A DNA stretch of 24,150 nucleotides from a virus. The stretch is taken from IMG/VR virus record IMGVR_UViG_3300028837_000876, positions 1 through 24,150 of that record, one strand, 5' to 3'. The position numbers and the translations under genes are program-made. Positions 2,764 through 22,029 of the stretch are shown one piece after another. Under the pieces are notes generated by a model. It was given only the letters and a program-made list of their open reading frames with translations. It was not told the DNA's origin and did not search any database. Positions within the stretch are counted from its first letter, which is position 1. Each line of letters opens with the position of its first letter.

Positions 2764-5385
2764 TTAAGATTTACTTTCCAATTTATCCAAGCGTTTGTTA
2801 ACAGCTAAAACGAACTCCTGCATAGCCCTAACAAGTAGCCATATCTGTGAACCTATGCTTATCCCAATCTGGGGCTCTGGGAGCCAGGGCTTTTTGGCTT
2901 CTTTGCCCTGCTTGACTTTTTCATTATATCGCTCCAGGCTTCTTTCGTAGTGCTCCATCGCCTGCTCATTATCTTCTTGTGTAGGTATCTCTAGCAGCTC
3001 AGGTGGGAATGTGCTTTTGTCCTTTCTGAAAATAGTCAAACCGTGGCCAGCACTCTCTAATTTCTTTTGGATGCTCCGGCTCATGTGCTTGCTAACCCTG
3101 TCCTCTAAAGTGACATATTCTGATGTAGCCCTTAAATTCATTACGGCTTCAAGTGGCTCCGCTATCTCTTCGCAATGGCTGGCTTCGAGAAACCGCTCAG
3201 ACCATATATAATCATGATGAAAATCCGCAGTGCCTATTCTATACGCTTCGTTCTCATCCACCAGCATGTCAGCATCTATAAGGATTTCATCATTGAGTAT
3301 AATCTGCCCATTCGAACTAGACAAAATAAGGTCAGTCTGTGCCTCTATTGTAATAGTGGATGTATTACACCATATCTGCACATTCCCATCACCAATCAAT
3401 CTTAAATGCTTACCAGAGGAGCCATAGGTCCCAATAGTGAAAGTTGTGCTAGAGGCATACATTTTGCCTGTGTTAGAGCCAGAGAATTTGAATTTGACCC
3501 ACTCAGCGCTAGTATTATCATCAATCGTTATACCACCAGAGTCAATTATAACTTTTCCTCCACCAGCACTAATTGCTCCATTAACTGTTAGAGTTTCCCC
3601 CGCTTCGATATTAGAAGCCTTGAGTGTTCCAGCAAATTCCCCTGCGGTGGCATAGACCGTCCCTCTAACGGTCACATCATTAAACTCCGCTGAACCATCC
3701 CCGTTTATAATCCAGCCTGCTGAGCCTGCCGAATAGTTGGATGACTTTATATCGTCGGTTACTGCGACTACACCGTCTAGCGTGATATTATCGGACTGAA
3801 TCTTGATACCTTCGGTAGAGATATTGATTTGGTGGATGACGTCGTTTTTGCTGACTTTTAGAGTGATATTACCGGCATTGACGGTTATCTGACCTTGAAG
3901 AGTAGAATCAGCATTGGTTCGATTGGTGACTTCTAAAGTGATATTATCGGCATTGACATCTATCAATCCTTCGAGCGTGGTATCACCGTTGATCCGATTG
4001 GTAACTTCAATCGAGATGTTATCGGCATTGACGCTTATGTTGCCTTCATTGGTAGTCACCTTGCCATCAAGCGTATTTATATTCGTTACATTGATGGAAA
4101 TATTATTGGTATTGACGCTTATGCTTGAGGTGTTTGTGCTTATCTGTGTATCCCTGACCAGCTCCCATTCCCCGGCTTTAATCTCATCAGCGCCAACACA
4201 GGCAGCCCGATACAATTTATTATGGTCGTTTGTATCGAACCACAAATCTCCTACACGAGTTGATGTAGGGATGCCATCTTGTTTAAATATAGTCACGCCA
4301 GCACCGACTTCAATTTTGTCTGCACTAATCTTGATTCCCTCTGCCGTGGCATTTATCGTTGCTATTACCTCGCCCGTTTCCCCGGATGATGACAAAGGCA
4401 TGAAGTCCAGCCTAGTCAGGTTTATGGTGCCTGTCGTGATGTAATCTCCCCGGATGGTAGTTTCGCCGCCGGTGGCCCAGTCCAGCACGGTAAATGTGCC
4501 TTTAACTATGACCTGCCCCGCCCCTATTACAGTCGCTATATGGTGGTCGAACTGCTGTCGATCATAGACTTCCGTAAGCGTGTCGGTTATGTCCTTGGTG
4601 CGGTTAGCCAGCTCCAATACCATGAGATGAGGATTCAGCAAATCAGGATGCTCAATCTTGACCACTTTCACCGCAACGTCTATGCCCAAATCCTCGTCAA
4701 TAACCGTTATGGTCGAGCCTAACTGCAAAGCCTCAAAGGAGAAATCATATTCCTCTGATTCGCTTAAATCCGCCGTGTCTACCCGATAATAAACCGGTGG
4801 GTTCTTGTAGTCTGCTATTAGCAAGTTCGCCCATGCCAGTAATGTATCAGGATGCGTGATGGACCTGTCCACAAACACGCCTGGATAAATCCCGCCCCAT
4901 TGTTCCTGGCTATCGGTATCTTCTACATAATCTTCCTCTTGCCCATCGGCATCGCTCAGCTTTATCCGTGCCGTGCCTTCACCTTCGCCGTAGGCATAGA
5001 TCCGATTGAACAGCTTGCTATAATCAATCTCCCGCTCGATGCCCTTCAAATTCTTGCGATACCGTATCTGTTGCCCCTTATCCTCGCCCAGGGAGCTGGC
5101 CCATTGCAGCTTCCTATCATTGTCCACATAAATATAGCCGCCCACGGTATCCCGTAGCCTGAATAGAGCTCTCAGAAGCCTATCCCCATCTACTTTAATT
5201 GACCGAGTGAGACTGGAATAATCGCCTGATATCGTCCCCACAGTAATCGCTGGCGTTAGCACCTGGAAATTAAGCAATGCCGTGACGATAGCCGAGACCG
5301 TTGCATCCTCAGCCTCATAGGAGGTAACCATTTCTTTCGCCAACTGCGATGCTAAATCCTGTGCTTCGATTTGTGTGATAATCAT
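2764..5385 (-). CDS. Tail-tip/receptor-binding protein: tail-associated domain followed by beta-repeat fibre
   Basis: Residues 1 to about 260 match the rest of the phage minor structural protein/prophage tail endopeptidase-like (Tal) N-terminal region, but the first part of that domain is absent and lies at the end of the upstream gene. Residues about 400-560 hold repeated coils of about 30 residues (variants of VNADNITLEVTNRTN), typical of trimeric beta-fibres. Residues about 560-730 give further beta-rich segments (GSAEFNDVTVRGTVYATAG). The last 140 residues are helical and charged, ending in a probable coiled coil (FVLAVNKRLDKLE). I see no S74 chaperone motif. The protein should sit at the tail tip and contact the host surface. 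The start ATG overlaps the upstream stop as ATGA and lacks a well-spaced ribosome binding site, so expression probably relies on reinitiation. Confidence 0.8.
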   Translation of the reverse strand: MIITQIEAQDLASQLAKEMVTSYEAEDATVSAIVTALLNFQVLTPAITVGTISGDYSSLTRSIKVDGDRLLRALFRLRDTVGGYIYVDNDRKLQWASSLGEDKGQQIRYRKNLKGIEREIDYSKLFNRIYAYGEGEGTARIKLSDADGQEEDYVEDTDSQEQWGGIYPGVFVDRSITHPDTLLAWANLLIADYKNPPVYYRVDTADLSESEEYDFSFEALQLGSTITVIDEDLGIDVAVKVVKIEHPDLLNPHLMVLELANRTKDITDTLTEVYDRQQFDHHIATVIGAGQVIVKGTFTVLDWATGGETTIRGDYITTGTINLTRLDFMPLSSSGETGEVIATINATAEGIKISADKIEVGAGVTIFKQDGIPTSTRVGDLWFDTNDHNKLYRAACVGADEIKAGEWELVRDTQISTNTSSISVNTNNISINVTNINTLDGKVTTNEGNISVNADNISIEVTNRINGDTTLEGLIDVNADNITLEVTNRTNADSTLQGQITVNAGNITLKVSKNDVIHQINISTEGIKIQSDNITLDGVVAVTDDIKSSNYSAGSAGWIINGDGSAEFNDVTVRGTVYATAGEFAGTLKASNIEAGETLTVNGAISAGGGKVIIDSGGITIDDNTSAEWVKFKFSGSNTGKMYASSTTFTIGTYGSSGKHLRLIGDGNVQIWCNTSTITIEAQTDLILSSSNGQIILNDEILIDADMLVDENEAYRIGTADFHHDYIWSERFLEASHCEEIAEPLEAVMNLRATSEYVTLEDRVSKHMSRSIQKKLESAGHGLTIFRKDKSTFPPELLEIPTQEDNEQAMEHYERSLERYNEKVKQGKEAKKPWLPEPQIGISIGSQIWLLVRAMQEFVLAVNKRLDKLESKS

Positions 5386-7130
5386 GTCCTTACATCCATC
5401 TCGCGAAATAGTCTGAATTTGCGCACCAATGCCCCGCTCGAATAATTCCTCAGCCAGATTTCATTAGCCAGGATGATATTTGCAGCTTTGCCATCATTGG
5501 CTGGTAAATTGAACGATAAGGTATGCGGGCTGTTTATCATCTGAGCATATGCAATATCATGGGCGTTCTCCAGGATAGCTATTAAATCCCCATCGCCATC
5601 ATGTAGTTCCAGAATATATCTGAGAGCGATTAGATGCTTGGCCGCAATTATGGACGGGATGAGCACAGCAACATCAATGCCAATCAGCGGAGCATAGATT
5701 ACCAGGGCCCCTTCCCAAGTTGGTGTTAATGCAGCGGAATCTATGGCTGCTAACACTGCCGAAATGTTTATGCCTAAACTCAAAGATGCAGCGAATGCTC
5801 CGCTCTCCATGGATACAAGCGGGACATCAATACCAGCGCCCAGATGGATAGTCGGAATCAAAGCTTGTCCATCTATGGAAATTAGAGGCGCATTAAATAT
5901 CCTGTCTAATCTCAGGATCGGTGCTAATCCAGCGCTGTCTATCGCAATCAATGGGCCTGCGATATTTATGCCCAAACTCAATATGCCAACTAGCGCTTCG
6001 CTATCTATGGTGATTAAAGGAACATCAACCTCAGTGCCTATCCCGACGGATGGCGCTATGGCTTGCCCGTCAATGCCGATTAGCGGAACGCCAAATAGCC
6101 TATCTAATATCAAGGATGGGTTCAGACCTTCAGCATTTATTTCCGCGGCCACGCCGTTTATCTTCTGGTCCAGGATAAATCCTGGCACAAAAACTTCGCT
6201 GGTTAATGCCACCACTGCTGGAGATATTTCTATGCCTAAGCCTGGTATCCCAGGATATGCTTGGCTGTCTATCAAGATTAAAGGGGCTGCAAATATTCTA
6301 TCTAAGATTAAGCTAGGGGCTATTGCTGCACTGCTAACAGAGACAAGAGGCGAATCAAAGATACGGTCAAGAATGAAGCTAGGAACATATCCCTGCCCGT
6401 TAATACCAACTAGGGGAGAGGCCAGAGACAGTCCCAGGCTCAACTCAGGAACTTTGCCTTCGCTGTTAACAGCCACTGATGGAGGCTGAACCTCGACATT
6501 GGTAACTGCTGCAGTATCTAGCTCGTAGATAAGTTCTGCATAGCTGTCACAGAGCCATATGGTATTAGCATCTCCGCCTACACCCGTGGGGTTGATATAT
6601 GGTGAGGCAGCAGACCTGTCAACCGAGAAGTCGGTGGTCGATAACTCATAGATAATGTCGGAAGCGGTATCACAATGCCATATCGTATTAGCGTCTCCAC
6701 CTATGCCATAGGGGGCAGAAGATGGTGAGCTAGCAGACCTGTCAACTGAGAAGTCAGTAGTCGATAGCTCGTAGATAAGTTCTGCATCCGAGTCACAGTG
6801 CCATATCGTGTTAGCATCTCCGCCTATGCCATGGGGGTAGGTATATGGTGAATCAGCAGACCTATCAACTGAGAAATCGGTGGTCGATAGCTCATAGATA
6901 AGGTCTGTAATGTAGTCACAGAGCCATATGGTATTAGCATCTCCGCCTATGCCGATGGGGGCGACATTTGGTGAGGCAGCAGACCTGTCAACTGAAAAAT
7001 CAGTGGTCGATAGCTCATAGATAAGGTCAGAAACGGGGGCACAATGCCATATGGTATTAGCATCTCCGCCTATGCCATGGGGGTTGCTATCTGGTGAGGC
7101 AGCAGACCTGATTACATCGCCAAAAGCCAC
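5382..7130 (-). CDS. Tail-tip protein with two repeat arrays and the first part of the Tal-like domain
   Basis: The start is GTG after AGGAGATAAGAC. Residues 8-212 are five 41-residue tandem units with the core GIGGDANTIW and YELSTTDFSVDRS, suggesting beta-propeller-like blades; two short patches in each unit differ from copy to copy. Residues about 213-495 are a second array of roughly 25-30-residue units of the type APLISIDGQALIP, probably a beta-solenoid. The last 80 residues (from RYILELHDGDGDLIAILENA through ANEIWLRNYSSG) match the beginning of the phage minor structural/Tal N-terminal domain, whose remainder starts the next gene. The fusion of repeats upstream of this domain is unusual. 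It probably binds host surface material. Confidence 0.72.
   Translation of the reverse strand: MAFGDVIRSAASPDSNPHGIGGDANTIWHCAPVSDLIYELSTTDFSVDRSAASPNVAPIGIGGDANTIWLCDYITDLIYELSTTDFSVDRSADSPYTYPHGIGGDANTIWHCDSDAELIYELSTTDFSVDRSASSPSSAPYGIGGDANTIWHCDTASDIIYELSTTDFSVDRSAASPYINPTGVGGDANTIWLCDSYAELIYELDTAAVTNVEVQPPSVAVNSEGKVPELSLGLSLASPLVGINGQGYVPSFILDRIFDSPLVSVSSAAIAPSLILDRIFAAPLILIDSQAYPGIPGLGIEISPAVVALTSEVFVPGFILDQKINGVAAEINAEGLNPSLILDRLFGVPLIGIDGQAIAPSVGIGTEVDVPLITIDSEALVGILSLGINIAGPLIAIDSAGLAPILRLDRIFNAPLISIDGQALIPTIHLGAGIDVPLVSMESGAFAASLSLGINISAVLAAIDSAALTPTWEGALVIYAPLIGIDVAVLIPSIIAAKHLIALRYILELHDGDGDLIAILENAHDIAYAQMINSPHTLSFNLPANDGKAANIILANEIWLRNYSSGALVRKFRLFREMDVRT
6495..7109 (-). repeat. 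Five in-frame 123-bp tandem repeats
   Basis: Five consecutive 123-bp units encode 41 residues each. The blocks encoding GIGGDANTIW and STTDFSVDRS are nearly identical between units. The codons for the five residues before GIGGD, and for the five after WHCD or WLCD, vary. Copy number could change by recombination or be miscounted in assembly. Confidence 0.9.
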
Positions 7131-9063: not shown

Positions 9064-11225
9064 TATGCTCCCTGCAGCGCCATCTTAGTTCGTAGCCGCC
9101 TCTCTAGCGCCATGGCTATGCGGTCCACGTCAGCCTCTTCCCGAACCACCAGCTCAGCGATATTGATGACAATGCCCGCAGCTCCAGCGCCAGTAAGAGG
9201 CACCACTGCCTCGGGACCTCTTTCGCCCAGCATGGCCAGTGTCGGCTCGGTAACAATCCCGCCGGCAGCAAAGCTCGGCAGCGATATATTCGGGATATCA
9301 AACCCAAAATGCTTACCGCCAAAAATAGGTACCCAGTCAGGTGCATCGAAGCTGATCTTGTTAATCTGGTCTATCAGCCAGTTAATGGCCCTCTCTATGG
9401 CATCCAGTGCAGCCCTGAAGGGAGACAGCATGATATCTTTCAGCGTAGAAAAGGCTCTGCCGATAGCTGCCGGGATGTTTTTGAAGAAATCTACCAGGCT
9501 GTTCCACACATTACGGATCGCATTCGTTATCTCTTCAGTGTCTATGCCCATCTGCTCCAGGAAATCCCTGAACTCGTCTACCATGGTTTTCGCAGCGCCC
9601 AGGATCGTGCCTTTAACTCCGCCGCCGAATTTCTCTGAGTTCTCCTGTATCTTCCCCCATATTCGACTGGCCGCTTCCCTAGTCTCTTCCCAATTGGAGA
9701 TAAATCCGTTCTTGATTTTATTCCCGACGTCGCTGAAGAAACCTTGTATCTTCCCCCATATCTCTGAGGCTTTCTCCTTGATGGTATCCCAGTGTTTGAT
9801 TATCAGACCCACAGGAGTCATATTGAGGAAGATGGTCTTAATGCCTTCCCCTACCTTCTCAAAGAAGGCTTTTATCGCATTCCATATTTCCGCAGCCTTT
9901 TCTTTAATCTTGTCCCAGTTCTTCCAGATAAGAACGCCGACTGCTATGATTCCAATAATAGCCGCTATGATCAAACCTATGGGTCCGGTCAGAGCTGCAA
10001 ATGCCACTCCCAAGATGGGCAGAGCTGCCGTTATCGCCGGCAGAAAAGCCAGCAGCGGACCCAGTACCAACAGCAGTCCTCCCAGCGCCGCCATGCCGGC
10101 CAGAATCATTGCTGTTAGCTCAGGATGTTCGGCTATCCAATCGGCTATCTTCGTAATAATCGGTGTTATAGCTTCAACCAGTTTCTTGAGCGTCGGCATC
10201 AGCGCCTTCCCGATCGTCATTGCCACATCCATAAACTCCGCCTTCAGGTGCGCCATCTGCCTAGGCATACTTTCTTCCATTTGATCAGCGGCATCATTCA
10301 TTGCCCCCTGCGATTCAGTCATGGCATCTATGTCAGCAGCAGCCATCTCCGCATTTTCACCAGTCGTCCCAAAAACAACACCAAGGGCCTCAACACTACC
10401 AAATGCCTTGCCTAACATTTCATTGTTGCCCTCAGCAGCTACTGTTAAGGCCTCTAATGTTCCATGATAACCTAGAGTTGCTAACATCGCTTCAGCAGTT
10501 TCATAACCAGCAGCTTTTATCAACGCCTTCATTTCTGTAGTCGGTTTAGTCAGAGCGACCATCGAAGCCCTTATCTGGGTAAATGCTTGGCTGGTAGGAA
10601 CACCCTGCTTGGTAAGTGTGGCCACGGTAGCCAGTACTTCCTCATAGCCCACGTTCAAAGCAGCGGCGATCGGCATAGCTAGCGACATGTGAGCCGATAG
10701 TTCCTCAAATGTAGTGACACCTCTTGCTACAGTGGTGAACATAGCATCAGCCACTTTTTCGGCATCACTCATAGGCAACTTGAAAGCATTGATGACTGTG
10801 GTTAATCCCTCAACAGATGTTTTCGTGTCACTCATTCCAGCAATTCCCGCCTTTGTTGCCACTCTGAGGAAATCAATAGCATTCTCCTTCGGCACTCCAG
10901 CCGATATTGCTTGATATAGAGCATTAGCCATCTCAACAGCATCAACCCCCATGTCTTTAGCCAGTCCTCGCACATCATCGGAAAGGTTGCCGAATTCTTC
11001 CTCATTCAGCAGCATCATCGTATTGACTCCCCGCATGGCTGAATCGAAGTCGGCAAACATCTTCAGCGAAGCCGCTCCCACCCCCACAGCAGCACCAACC
11101 ATCGCTCCACCGATGAACTTGGCATGTTTGAGAGCTCCACCTAGCCGTGATTGAACTTTATCCATGCCTTTCTCAAACTCTGAGGTTTTGGCCCCTATGG
11201 CTACCATCAACTTACTATCTGCCAT
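9063..11225 (-). CDS. Tail tape measure protein
   Basis: This is the longest intact protein of the tail block (720 aa), located right after the tail chaperones as in most siphophages. The first 330 residues contain the conserved TP901-type tape measure core (FADFDSAMRGVNTMM, VEGLTTVINAF, AMPIAAALNVGYEEVLATVA, QGVPTSQAFTQIRASM). Residues about 370-440 are strongly hydrophobic with several membrane-type segments (PIGLIIAAIIGIIAVGVLIW). Residues about 440-620 hold short WxxIKEKAxEIWxxI repeats. The C-terminus (ERGPEAVVPL) is the usual end motif. It sets tail length and is ejected during DNA entry. The length predicts a tail of roughly 100 nm at about 0.15 nm per residue. Confidence 0.92.
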   Translation of the reverse strand: MADSKLMVAIGAKTSEFEKGMDKVQSRLGGALKHAKFIGGAMVGAAVGVGAASLKMFADFDSAMRGVNTMMLLNEEEFGNLSDDVRGLAKDMGVDAVEMANALYQAISAGVPKENAIDFLRVATKAGIAGMSDTKTSVEGLTTVINAFKLPMSDAEKVADAMFTTVARGVTTFEELSAHMSLAMPIAAALNVGYEEVLATVATLTKQGVPTSQAFTQIRASMVALTKPTTEMKALIKAAGYETAEAMLATLGYHGTLEALTVAAEGNNEMLGKAFGSVEALGVVFGTTGENAEMAAADIDAMTESQGAMNDAADQMEESMPRQMAHLKAEFMDVAMTIGKALMPTLKKLVEAITPIITKIADWIAEHPELTAMILAGMAALGGLLLVLGPLLAFLPAITAALPILGVAFAALTGPIGLIIAAIIGIIAVGVLIWKNWDKIKEKAAEIWNAIKAFFEKVGEGIKTIFLNMTPVGLIIKHWDTIKEKASEIWGKIQGFFSDVGNKIKNGFISNWEETREAASRIWGKIQENSEKFGGGVKGTILGAAKTMVDEFRDFLEQMGIDTEEITNAIRNVWNSLVDFFKNIPAAIGRAFSTLKDIMLSPFRAALDAIERAINWLIDQINKISFDAPDWVPIFGGKHFGFDIPNISLPSFAAGGIVTEPTLAMLGERGPEAVVPLTGAGAAGIVINIAELVVREEADVDRIAMALERRLRTKMALQGA

Positions 11226-19184: not shown

Positions 19185-19213
19185 TTGCAACACTTATATA
19201 TCTATGCTACTAT
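19185..19213 (+). promoter_or_regulatory. Possible promoter for the antisense endonuclease
   Basis: TTGCAA (19185-19190) and TACTAT (19208-19213) are separated by 17 bases, each matching four of six consensus positions. It lies in the inserted segment between the duplicated C-exteins, about 70-90 bases upstream of the endonuclease start codons and pointing at it. There is no other explanation for the extra bases there. Confidence 0.35.
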
Positions 19214-22029
19214 TCAGCAACAATCTGGCACACGCAATTATGGACTACAAATCCACCAGCAATGTACCATTGTGAATCTGTATGGAGGTTATAGACGTTA
19301 CCATGAAAAGAATCATACTCAACCCGAACGATTTTATCGGAGACTATCTCAATGGGAAGACTATATTTGCCATTGCGAAAGACCTCGGGGTCTCTAGGGC
19401 CGTTGTACGTAATTACTTGATGACCAACGGGGTGACGCCTAGAACCCGTAGTGAAACTAGTAGAATCATTTGGTGCAATATGACTCCTGATCAACGTGCT
19501 TATCAAGTTGCGGCTGCTCACACGGCCACCATCGGACTTAAACCTACTTTTGAAGCCCTTTGCTTGGCCGCCAAAACTAAGCAACGACGGCAAGTCCACA
19601 TCTCTCATACCGAGAGGATTATTGCTAGCTGGCTCATTGAACGAGGAACTGTGTTTAGCCAGCAATTCGCTATTGGCCCTTATAATTGCGACTTTGCCAT
19701 CCCGCCCGTCGCCGTGGAAATCTTTGGCGGACATTGGCACTGGTATGGTGCTCATCTCGTTCGGCTTGCAAAACGATTTCGCTATATCCTCAATTCTGGC
19801 TGGCATATTCTCGTAATATCTTCCTATGGATTCATTCCCATTACAAGCAAGGCCGCTGATTACATCATCTCCTACGTGCAGGCTGCCCGCAGCAATCCAT
19901 CCATGCCCCGTGAGTATCGGGTGATTAGGGGTGCAGGTGAGCTTGTGGCCTCTGGAAGTATAAAGGACGATAATATCTCCATCAAACCAATATTCACTGC
20001 TCGCCGCAATGCCCTCGGCCGCTACGAGCATACTCCCAGGTAAGCAGCCCAAATGAAGCGGAGGATGTGTCGTCGGCCGATATGCCTTTATCTCCGATCC
20101 CCCTTCCGCTAACAAAGTATCTCCTTCAGCCAGGAATGACTGCTCTATCCCTACTACCTTCCCATCCATCTCCTGGCATAACGGGCAGCTCTTACTTCCT
20201 AATGCCATCCACCTCAGCCTAGTAATCCCTGCCCCGGCAAATATCGTTTTCGCCACCGCGTTGCTCAGTTGCGTCACTTCATTCATCCCTGTCTTGCCAG
20301 GCCGCTTCTCCTCCCATTCGTCCAGCCTCGTTATTATCGCCTCTAATGGGCTCTCCCCTGCATCTACCGCTTCGTTGATAAGAGCCTGTAGCTGCCCTTT
20401 CGATGATTTCACGTATCTGGCATTAAATGCCGTCCCATACTGCCTCAAAAAGTTCTCCAGCTCGGCCGTCATCCCAGCTTCACCATTCACTTCATCCGCT
20501 GCTATCGCCTGTATCGCTTCAGCCAAAGCATATATCGCTGGAGCCATCTGCCTCCCGATAAATTCAGGGAAATCCCGGTAAAAGTCGTCCAACCACTCAT
20601 TGAATTCCACCATTCCCCTTTCCGCTAAGTGTTTCCTGGCTGCCCGCAGCACATTGTCCTTCTCCCGCTTCACTATCCGCCCTGCTGCATCCTCAAACAC
20701 TCTCCGATAAGATTCCGCTGTCCGATGCCGATTCATCGCCGCCCTTAATCCTCGTTCCTCCTCTCCCTTGACGGCAGAGGATTCAGGTGAGGGTGAGCCT
20801 CTAACCAACCCCTTCGCCTCTCCTTCTCCGCTTGCCACGCCGCCCGCCGGCAGCATGTTCATTGGCACATAGTAAATATTTCCCTGATCTCCAGGGAGAG
20901 GATCCATGTTCTCTAGTTCTCTGATGTCATTGGCACTCAGCCAGCCCCATTGTCGCCCCGTGGCATAAGCCTTGTATCGGCTCTCCACGTCTCCGCGGAG
21001 CAGCCCTTCTACTAGGAATTCAGCAAAATATTCTGTCCTTTCGTTAGGCCCCAGCAATTTCTTGGAAATCATTTGCTCCCATCTCACAAACCAGGGCCGC
21101 ATCGTATAGACCACGAACTCGATGCCTTGGTGCTCGATGTTGGAGAAAGTAGCATGTTCCAAATCGCCTATCATGTGCGGCGGAATATGAAAGAAGCTGG
21201 CTATCTCTGCCCGCTGGAATTTCCTCGTTTCCAGGAATTGAGCATCATCAGGTGGTATCCCCACCTGTTGATACTTCATCCCTTCTTCCAGTATCGCTAT
21301 CCGATGCTGATTCGATAACCCTTTGTGCATCTCATTCCAGGACTTGCGCAGATTCTCCTGTGCCGATTCTCCTAATTTGCCCGGATGCTCCAGCACTCCG
21401 CCAGGTTTGGCGCCATTACCGAAGAATCTCGCTCCGAATTCCTCTGTTGCTAGCGATAGCCCAATCGCTTCCCTCGCCATGTGTATCGGCGAGTACCCCA
21501 CCACTCCATCAAACCCTAATCCAGGGATGTGAAGCATCCGATAACTTGGCAGCGTCACCTCAGCCCCATCAGGTAATCGATAATGATAAAATAGTTTCCC
21601 GTTGTCCCGCTTGATTGACATCTTGTCTGGACGGAACGGCCATAATGCCCTTGGCCTTCCCGTTGGCATATCCCAGTCTATCTCAGCATAGGCATTTCCC
21701 CACAGCACCAGGTGCGCCATCAATGCCTCACGGAAGTTGAAACTGGTCATCTCGGGATTCGGGGAATTATGCAGCAATGAATATAGCGGATGCTCGAATG
21801 CCCTCCGTTTGCTGCGCTTTGTCAGCCGCCGGTAAAGCGGCAGCGGAATGGATGCCAGCGTTTCCGATAACAGCCTCACGCAGGCGAATACTGCCACGTT
21901 GTTTAGTGCCGTCCTCTCGTTTACTGCTACGCCGGTATAAGACGGCCTGCCCATCGTCAGAAAGTCCATCTTCTTGTCGGCATCAGCCAGCGAATACCGC
22001 TTTTCAATCAATTGAGTGATAAGTCCCAC
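19210..22029 (-). CDS. Portal protein fused to MuF-like minor head protein, interrupted by an intein
   Basis: The GTG start overlaps the stop of the upstream gene by one base and follows GGAGGTAGGAG. Residues 1 to about 385 are an HK97-type portal (ALNNVAVFACVRLLSETLAS, NPEMTSFNFREALMAHLVLW, HIPPHMIGDLEHATFSNIEH), the dodecameric DNA channel at one vertex. Residues about 400-430 are a low-conservation linker containing a dispersed repeat. Residues about 440-661 are a MuF/SPP1 gp7-like head morphogenesis domain, with CPLC at 615-618 and HPPLHLG before the intein. The intein is residues 662-931, and the C-extein CVCQIVAE ends the protein. The spliced protein would have 669 residues. Portal-MuF fusions place the minor head protein at the portal vertex. 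Without splicing the MuF metal-type motif would be broken. Confidence 0.9.
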   Translation of the reverse strand: MGLITQLIEKRYSLADADKKMDFLTMGRPSYTGVAVNERTALNNVAVFACVRLLSETLASIPLPLYRRLTKRSKRRAFEHPLYSLLHNSPNPEMTSFNFREALMAHLVLWGNAYAEIDWDMPTGRPRALWPFRPDKMSIKRDNGKLFYHYRLPDGAEVTLPSYRMLHIPGLGFDGVVGYSPIHMAREAIGLSLATEEFGARFFGNGAKPGGVLEHPGKLGESAQENLRKSWNEMHKGLSNQHRIAILEEGMKYQQVGIPPDDAQFLETRKFQRAEIASFFHIPPHMIGDLEHATFSNIEHQGIEFVVYTMRPWFVRWEQMISKKLLGPNERTEYFAEFLVEGLLRGDVESRYKAYATGRQWGWLSANDIRELENMDPLPGDQGNIYYVPMNMLPAGGVASGEGEAKGLVRGSPSPESSAVKGEEERGLRAAMNRHRTAESYRRVFEDAAGRIVKREKDNVLRAARKHLAERGMVEFNEWLDDFYRDFPEFIGRQMAPAIYALAEAIQAIAADEVNGEAGMTAELENFLRQYGTAFNARYVKSSKGQLQALINEAVDAGESPLEAIITRLDEWEEKRPGKTGMNEVTQLSNAVAKTIFAGAGITRLRWMALGSKSCPLCQEMDGKVVGIEQSFLAEGDTLLAEGGSEIKAYRPTTHPPLHLGCLPGSMLVAAEGIAASSEYWFDGDIIVLYTSRGHKLTCTPNHPILTGHGWIAAGSLHVGDDVISGLACNGNESIGRYYENMPARIEDIAKSFCKPNEMSTIPVPMSAKDFHGDGRDGKVAIIRANSELLAKHSSSFNEPASNNPLGMRDVDLPSLLSFGGQAKGFKSRFKSDGGRVSSRNLISTLIRSHIAPNDSTSFTTGSRRHPVGHQVITYNGPRDPEVFRNGKYSLPIEIVSDKIVRVEYDSFHGNVYNLHTDSQWYIAGGFVVHNCVCQIVAE
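19237..20046 (-). other. Intein (270 residues, Hint domain) in the portal-MuF protein
   Basis: Residues 662-931 of the precursor form an intein. The first residue is Cys (CLPGSMLVA, block A). Block B is TCTPNHPIL, with the T-x-x-H motif at intein residues 39-42. The C-terminal blocks are GNVYNLHTDSQWYIAGG (F) and FVVHN followed by Cys+1 (G), with the penultimate His and terminal Asn in place. All residues needed for standard Cys-type splicing can be seen. No LAGLIDADG or HNH domain is coded in the sense frame. Splicing would join HPPLHLG to CVCQIVAE and restore the MuF H-P...C-x-C motif. Confidence 0.9.
19282..20043 (+). CDS. Putative Vsr/EDxHD-type homing endonuclease, encoded antisense to the intein
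   Basis: This 253-codon ORF lies wholly inside the intein on the other strand, with codons exactly aligned back to back. Residues about 18-48 form a helix-turn-helix (DYLNGKTIFAIAKDLGVSRA). Residues about 109-180 match the Vsr-like/DUF559-like nuclease fold: E111 in HTERIIASWL, D137 in YNCDFAIPP, E146 and H151/H153 in VAVEIFGGHWHW, then RFRYILNSGWHILVI. The C-terminus (PREYRVIRGAGELVASGSIK and RRNALGRYEHTPR) resembles tails I recall in related phage proteins. EDxHD enzymes are known homing endonucleases. The start is either 19282 or ATG 19303, the latter 13 bases after GGAGG. The stop TAA lies at the edge of the insertion. Long antisense ORFs also occur elsewhere here by chance; the nuclease motifs are what make this one convincing. 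Confidence 0.8.
   Translation: MEVIDVTMKRIILNPNDFIGDYLNGKTIFAIAKDLGVSRAVVRNYLMTNGVTPRTRSETSRIIWCNMTPDQRAYQVAAAHTATIGLKPTFEALCLAAKTKQRRQVHISHTERIIASWLIERGTVFSQQFAIGPYNCDFAIPPVAVEIFGGHWHWYGAHLVRLAKRFRYILNSGWHILVISSYGFIPITSKAADYIISYVQAARSNPSMPREYRVIRGAGELVASGSIKDDNISIKPIFTARRNALGRYEHTPR
20757..20797. repeat. Dispersed GC-rich repeat inside the portal-MuF linker
   Basis: The + strand reads CTCTCCCTTGACGGCAGAGG followed by ATTCAGGTGAGGGTGA. It shares CTCCCTTGACGG...AGG...GAGGGTGA with copies at about 16405-16440 and 22249-22318. Here it is translated, giving about residues 411-425 of the portal fusion (SPSPESSAVKGEEE). It resembles REP-like elements that spread in bacterial chromosomes. Confidence 0.6.

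Follow-up and report, generated by a model that had tools for sequence, protein, structure and literature searches.

Mobile inteins such as PI-PfuI and TliVMA carry their homing nuclease in frame, as part of the polypeptide that splices itself out. Fractured genes have reportedly also been found, described by Dassa in 2009, in which a free EDxHD nuclease gene lies between the halves of a split intein. Outside inteins, the EDxHD homing endonuclease I-Bth0305I (PDB 3r3p) is regarded as an enzyme of the group I intron type (PMC3943268), nuclear group I introns include cases with antisense homing endonuclease genes (PMC9548176), and the ShiLan domain and Pacc40 insertions hide an out-of-frame HNH nuclease within an insertion that is open in the frame of the phage gene (PMC11855218, 2025). 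Here we report the analysis of a 24,150-base phage fragment, IMG/VR record IMGVR_UViG_3300028837_000876 (the window, to whose whole length all window coordinates refer), in which an intein in a portal–MuF gene is matched, codon for codon on the opposite strand, by an open reading frame (ORF) for a nuclease with a helix-turn-helix (HTH) domain and a Vsr/EDxHD-like core. We put the probability at roughly 87% that the element is a mobile intein with a homing endonuclease gene lying wholly on the other strand of the same DNA.

The element shares features with each of these systems and differs from all of them. Like inteins with an in-frame nuclease, it has the Hint fold of splicing, occupies a conserved site for which empty alleles exist, and is presumed to home, but its nuclease would be a separate protein read off the other strand. 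With I-Bth0305I, which is also phage-encoded, it shares a Vsr-like core joined to DNA-binding modules and a significant profile and fold match; in contrast to that enzyme, the window nuclease is antisense in an intein and dual-coded with it. The antisense genes of nuclear group I introns likewise lie opposite the strand of their host gene, but there the sense strand is a ribozyme and no double protein coding results. In ShiLan and Pacc40, as here, a homing nuclease is hidden in an open in-frame insertion whose sense product is disordered; those nucleases, however, are of HNH type, are encoded on the same strand and come without a splicing element, whereas here the nuclease is Vsr-type, on the opposite strand and within a complete intein, and the arrangement is much more widespread in the collections searched. 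The split inteins of the fractured genes reportedly have an intein-associated, unfused nuclease of EDxHD type, whereas here the nuclease gene lies wholly within an unbroken intein, with a single sense ORF running through it in 246 of 248 copies.

The host gene (19210–22029, minus strand) encodes a 939-residue precursor in which portal and MuF-like head proteins are fused, as judged from matches to Phage_portal (4e-123), Intein_splicing (5e-7) and phrog_2662 (portal protein, residues 37–662). The intein (19237–20046, minus strand; 270 residues) interrupts this gene close to its C-terminal end and runs from Cys1 (20044–20046) to Asn270 (19237–19239), after which Cys+1 follows as the extein residue. 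All protein-splicing blocks (Cys1, TxNH, YNL..HN and Cys+1) are present, and the predicted fold matches the Mtu RecA, TliVMA and Ssp DnaB inteins in Foldseek. In the model of the sense polypeptide (predicted local distance difference test score (pLDDT) 63.9), both splicing halves are confident: the N-terminal half (residues 1–67; 19846–20046, minus strand; pLDDT 71–97) faces the last 65 residues of the nuclease, and the C-terminal half comprises residues 230–270 (19237–19359, minus strand; pLDDT 85–96). The sense insert of residues 127–229 (19360–19668, minus strand) is predicted to be disordered (pLDDT about 38) and is the complement of the nuclease HTH, linker and first catalytic helix. A search of this insert for an in-frame nuclease domain gave neither a nuclease fold nor a profile match.

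The antisense ORF (19282–20043, plus strand; 253 residues from its upstream ATG) has its codons exactly opposite those of the intein, boundary to boundary (phase 0). It contains no stop over 253 codons, and the other two opposite frames contain 14 and 26. Its stop codon, TAA at 20041–20043, is the complement of intein Leu2 (TTA), so the nuclease gene lies wholly inside the intein. An earlier note on this DNA had given the coordinates of the intein, the lengths of the intein and the ORF, their codon alignment, the origin of the antisense stop and the lack of a nuclease on the sense strand, all of which we reproduce. It had also counted 45 Leu and Ser codons opposite the ORF, none of them TTA, CTA or TCA: the absence holds and the count is 44 on re-examination, with 10.2 such codons expected from same-gene usage and a probability of about 7e-6, close to the 1 in 100,000 that the note had estimated. 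The 253-residue product that it had proposed needs a smaller revision, as translation more likely starts at ATG 19303 than at ATG 19282, giving a protein of 246 residues (19303–20043, plus strand). This start is aligned with that of the closest homologue (L001) and is preceded by GGAGGT (19284–19289, plus strand), a Shine-Dalgarno-like site that complements the intein YNL codons (TAT AAC CTC). The start context GAG GTT ATA AAC ATG is the complement of the intein H-V-Y-N-L block. In 90 of 138 loci the nuclease start codon lies four codons from the Leu of this block (two codons further in the window), and where the residue is Leu its codon is CTC in 90 of 124 cases, against 21% in exteins (p about 4e-34). 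Taken without its relatives, the antisense ORF is suggestive, and the case therefore rests on comparative data.

A tblastn search with the antisense protein returned 129 phage records, most of them with coverage above 80%, from phages of Gordonia, Salmonella, Pseudomonas, Vibrio, Klebsiella, Haemophilus, Mycobacterium and Rhodococcus. In every annotated locus that we opened, except that of phage IME285, the nuclease lies inside a head-morphogenesis or MuF-type gene on the opposite strand; in the record of Salmonella phage PK2 the antisense ORF is entered as a hypothetical protein (XRA40007.1). Together with scans of virus contigs, the search yielded 470 nuclease ORFs. Clustering at 90% identity left 248 distinct copies, of which 246 are nested antisense to a continuous open sense gene, all in one codon phase. 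A first scan of genome contigs gave none, and a second gave four loci, all nested. The count of zero TTA, CTA and TCA codons across all nested loci is partly circular, as the loci were selected for an open antisense ORF, and we therefore place the weight on two selections made from the sense strand only, one by a sense profile and the other by a short two-motif sense DNA pattern. Every intein chosen by the profile carries the antisense nuclease (80/80; above 195 bits, with open frames of at least 241 codons). Those chosen by the DNA pattern all reach about 70 bits or above against the nuclease profile (81/81), and their antisense frame is at least 150 codons long in 80 cases, the remaining one being ended by the contig edge.

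Selection on the two strands was assessed by recoding and by the distribution of substitutions over codon positions. When 68 inteins were recoded with synonymous codons drawn from their own genes, the nuclease profile score had a median of 100 bits and a maximum of 157, against a median of 327 bits for the real copies, and on average 5.6 stops were added; such recoding thus destroys the antisense protein. Across 16 independent pairs, the substitution shares by sense codon position (1/2/3) were 25/18/58% in the exteins, the usual pattern, but 49/18/33% opposite the nuclease core (chi-square 357 against the extein), where the fastest position is the third position of the nuclease. Sense position 1 evolves fastest there, which makes the antisense frame the principal coding one opposite the core. 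Opposite the last 70 residues of the nuclease, where the intein has its N-terminal splicing block, the shares were 40/16/44%, a mark of dual constraint. The variability of the proteins points the same way: the first 180 residues of the nuclease vary less than the sense residues that they face, and the reverse holds over the last 45.

These data bear directly on the possibility that the antisense ORF has no product and is open and superficially conserved as a mere by-product of constraint on the sense codons with which it is aligned. This reading would draw on two observations: a phase-0 antisense frame inherits similarity from the sense frame, as the score of about 100 bits left after recoding illustrates, and long antisense ORFs arise by chance in the window. 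One of 390 codons opposite the tape measure gene (9112–10284, plus strand; p = 0.11) is within chance, gave no match when a family match was sought and serves as a useful negative control. However, real copies score far above the 157 bits reached by recoding, the codon-position pattern is inverted opposite the nuclease, the entropy of the antisense protein is the lower one over most of its length, its fold is predicted confidently, and free-standing homologues exist whose opposite frames each hold 5–24 stops. We therefore find a productless by-product scarcely credible; a chance ORF arising from codon bias is ruled out by the recoding and codon-position tests. By these sequence comparisons, the antisense ORF is a real coding gene.

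The overlap is tightest at the nuclease active site. The intein motif DFHGDG (sense residues 109–114; 19705–19722, minus strand) is the exact complement of the active-site strand of the nuclease, with nuclease V-A-V-E complementing intein F-H-G-D. The Glu of this motif, E146, is kept in 147 of 147 relatives, including those in which Leu replaces Phe on the sense strand. Codon choice is correspondingly narrow: the two Val codons are GTC in 107 of 108 cases (44% elsewhere in the gene) and GTG in 126 of 127 (24%), Ala is GCC in 136 of 142 (44%) and Glu is GAA in 133 of 147 (49%). On this codon evidence, both proteins need these bases, and both strands are constrained here.

AlphaFold2 predicts the antisense protein with a pLDDT of 93.8 as an HTH domain that a helical linker joins to a nuclease domain. 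The HTH DNA-binding domain comprises model residues about 15–52 (19324–19437, plus strand), and the Vsr/EDxHD-like nuclease domain (residues 105–208; 19594–19905, plus strand) is indicated by both profile and structure matches. The nuclease domain superimposes on Vsr with a Z score of 11.3 (113 residues, 2.5 Å) and on I-Bth0305I with a Z score of 9.9 (93 of 97 residues). I-Bth0305I is the top Foldseek match and, as 3r3p, the best profile match (E = 1.7e-5), followed by 3hrl (E = 2.7e-5), and 10 of 20 relatives match REase MTES_1575. In the numbering of the 253-residue ORF, which the earlier note used, the putative catalytic residues are E111 (GAG, 19612–19614), D137 (GAC, 19690–19692, in YNxD), E146 (GAA, 19717–19719, in VAVE) and H153 (CAC, 19738–19740, in GGHWHW), all on the plus strand; among 62 relatives D137 is invariant, and E111 and H153 are at least 90% conserved. 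What that note had predicted from the letters of the window, namely similarity to nucleases in profile searches, an HTH with a Vsr/EDxHD core in structure prediction, these four conserved residues, an antisense frame kept open in related inteins and a signal of overlapping-gene selection, is thus borne out, the last strongly so by codon positions, recoding and variability, and homologous inteins with frequent antisense stops, which it had named as evidence to the contrary, did not appear.

Several observations support a mobile intein. In Salmonella phage FSL SP-101 the MuF gene is uninterrupted and lacks exactly the 816 nucleotides found in VSe101. Between VSe101 and LSPA1 the intein is 90–100% identical in each 100-nucleotide interval and the N-extein side 55–80%, a contrast that, as a comparison of sequences, marks recent transfer. 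The intein with its antisense nuclease also occurs in a dCMP deaminase gene (L019, 2165–3514) and in a UDG–DNA polymerase A gene (L408, 2275–5679), in both cases adjoining conserved cysteines, as well as in a MuF–ADP-ribosyltransferase gene. One MuF-type gene (L429) holds two such inteins, inserted at separate sites and each accompanied by an antisense nuclease of its own; the sequence matches lie at 5147–5367 and 6431–6648 (minus strand). Two inteins, L397 and L422, are naturally shortened: their splicing blocks are complete, and the antisense nuclease is truncated, having lost its N-terminal part or the linker and first catalytic helix, as expected from a homing cycle. Finally, in Acinetobacter phage IME285 (L013, 413–1348) and in contig L064 (2345–3205), the nuclease is free-standing, tail-to-tail with an uninterrupted, intein-free MuF gene, and has 5–24 stops in each opposite frame. 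In a quick tree with weak inner support, these two copies fall in different parts, each amid nested copies; they may thus be independent escapes from inteins, or else relics of an ancestral state. A split-intein arrangement in IME285 was considered and is ruled out by its intact, intein-free MuF gene.

A real nuclease need not be a homing enzyme, and a repair, defence or regulatory enzyme might hitchhike in the intein; the closest fold by Z score is indeed that of Vsr, a mismatch repair nuclease. We consider this improbable, as the nuclease is embedded exactly in a mobile element for which empty sites and transfer are seen, its top Foldseek match and best profile match is a homing endonuclease, its free-standing copies directly adjoin the uninterrupted MuF gene, and the family is found in at least three unrelated genes. 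A search of a defence library with the nuclease gave nothing relevant, the best match being to a 60-residue HTH-like family (E = 0.007). It is also unlikely, though conceivable, that the family consists of homing endonucleases and the window copy is inactive and merely carried along. L397 and L422, with truncated nucleases and intact splicing blocks, show that decay in the homing cycle does occur in the family, but the window copy is full length, keeps all four catalytic residues (E111, D137, E146 and H153), is modelled with high confidence and has a relative at 54% identity.

Against an antisense homing endonuclease stand the following points. Conservation of the sense strand accounts for some of the antisense similarity, since recoded inteins retain about 100 bits. 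If codon usage across the window is taken as the null, an open antisense stretch of this length somewhere in the 939-codon gene has a p value of about 0.003. The Shine-Dalgarno site is 13 nucleotides from ATG 19303, a long spacing that is tighter in most relatives. No convincing sigma-70 promoter was found ahead of the nuclease, where 4 promoter-like sites compare with 2.6 expected. The aligned I-Bth0305I sequence has Ala at the Asp position and leaves the His position unmatched, so a one-to-one equivalence of residues with that enzyme is unproven. Lastly, we infer the expression of the nuclease, its cleavage of DNA and its homing.

With an antisense homing endonuclease as the favoured explanation, the element might work as follows. 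Sense transcription would yield the portal–MuF precursor, whose two splicing halves would fold together and excise the intein, the stretch between them probably being for the most part disordered, a side product of the antisense gene. Antisense transcription would yield the HTH and Vsr/EDxHD-like nuclease, translated from the ribosome-binding site and start that complement the intein C-terminal block. By what is known of homing endonucleases, this enzyme would cut intein-free MuF genes at the conserved insertion site, and repair off the intein-bearing copy would insert both genes together, because they are the same DNA. We think it likely that such elements form a distinct mobile-element class with obligate two-strand coding, the splicing protein on one strand and the homing nuclease on the other, their codons exactly opposed. 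The active site and translation start of the nuclease would fall in the complement of conserved intein motifs, and the layout would set the time of nuclease expression apart from that of the late structural gene. That opposite-strand coding gives the nuclease a different timing is itself speculation, because no promoter was identified.

The literature searched, which mostly excluded subscription papers and preprints, yielded no account of an intein with an antisense nuclease; as far as that literature shows, the locus adds an undescribed arrangement to those known for mobile inteins. The arrangement appears common, given 246 distinct nested copies from few scans, and annotation pipelines miss the nuclease because it is situated under another gene. 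Many phage inteins annotated as nuclease-less merit re-examination on the other strand. The locus also provides a long, well-documented pair of full-length proteins on opposite strands with selection visible on both, making questions about overlapping genes, and about the tolerance of a structural gene for a selfish element, directly testable.

Three further observations are of note. In Virus Rctr197k (KX853510.1, L019), the gene is annotated as a head morphogenesis protein and its exteins are those of a dCMP deaminase; the gene probably owes its name to the shared intein. In inteins of about 320 residues (such as L105, L119 and L238), compared with 270 in the window, the nuclease N terminus is longer, with what seems to be a second HTH, and the sense insert grows with this extra antisense DNA-binding module. 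Upstream of the intein studied here, the MuF gene of L113 appears to have another intein-like C-terminal block (VYDLHIQDDHSFIASDVPVHN).

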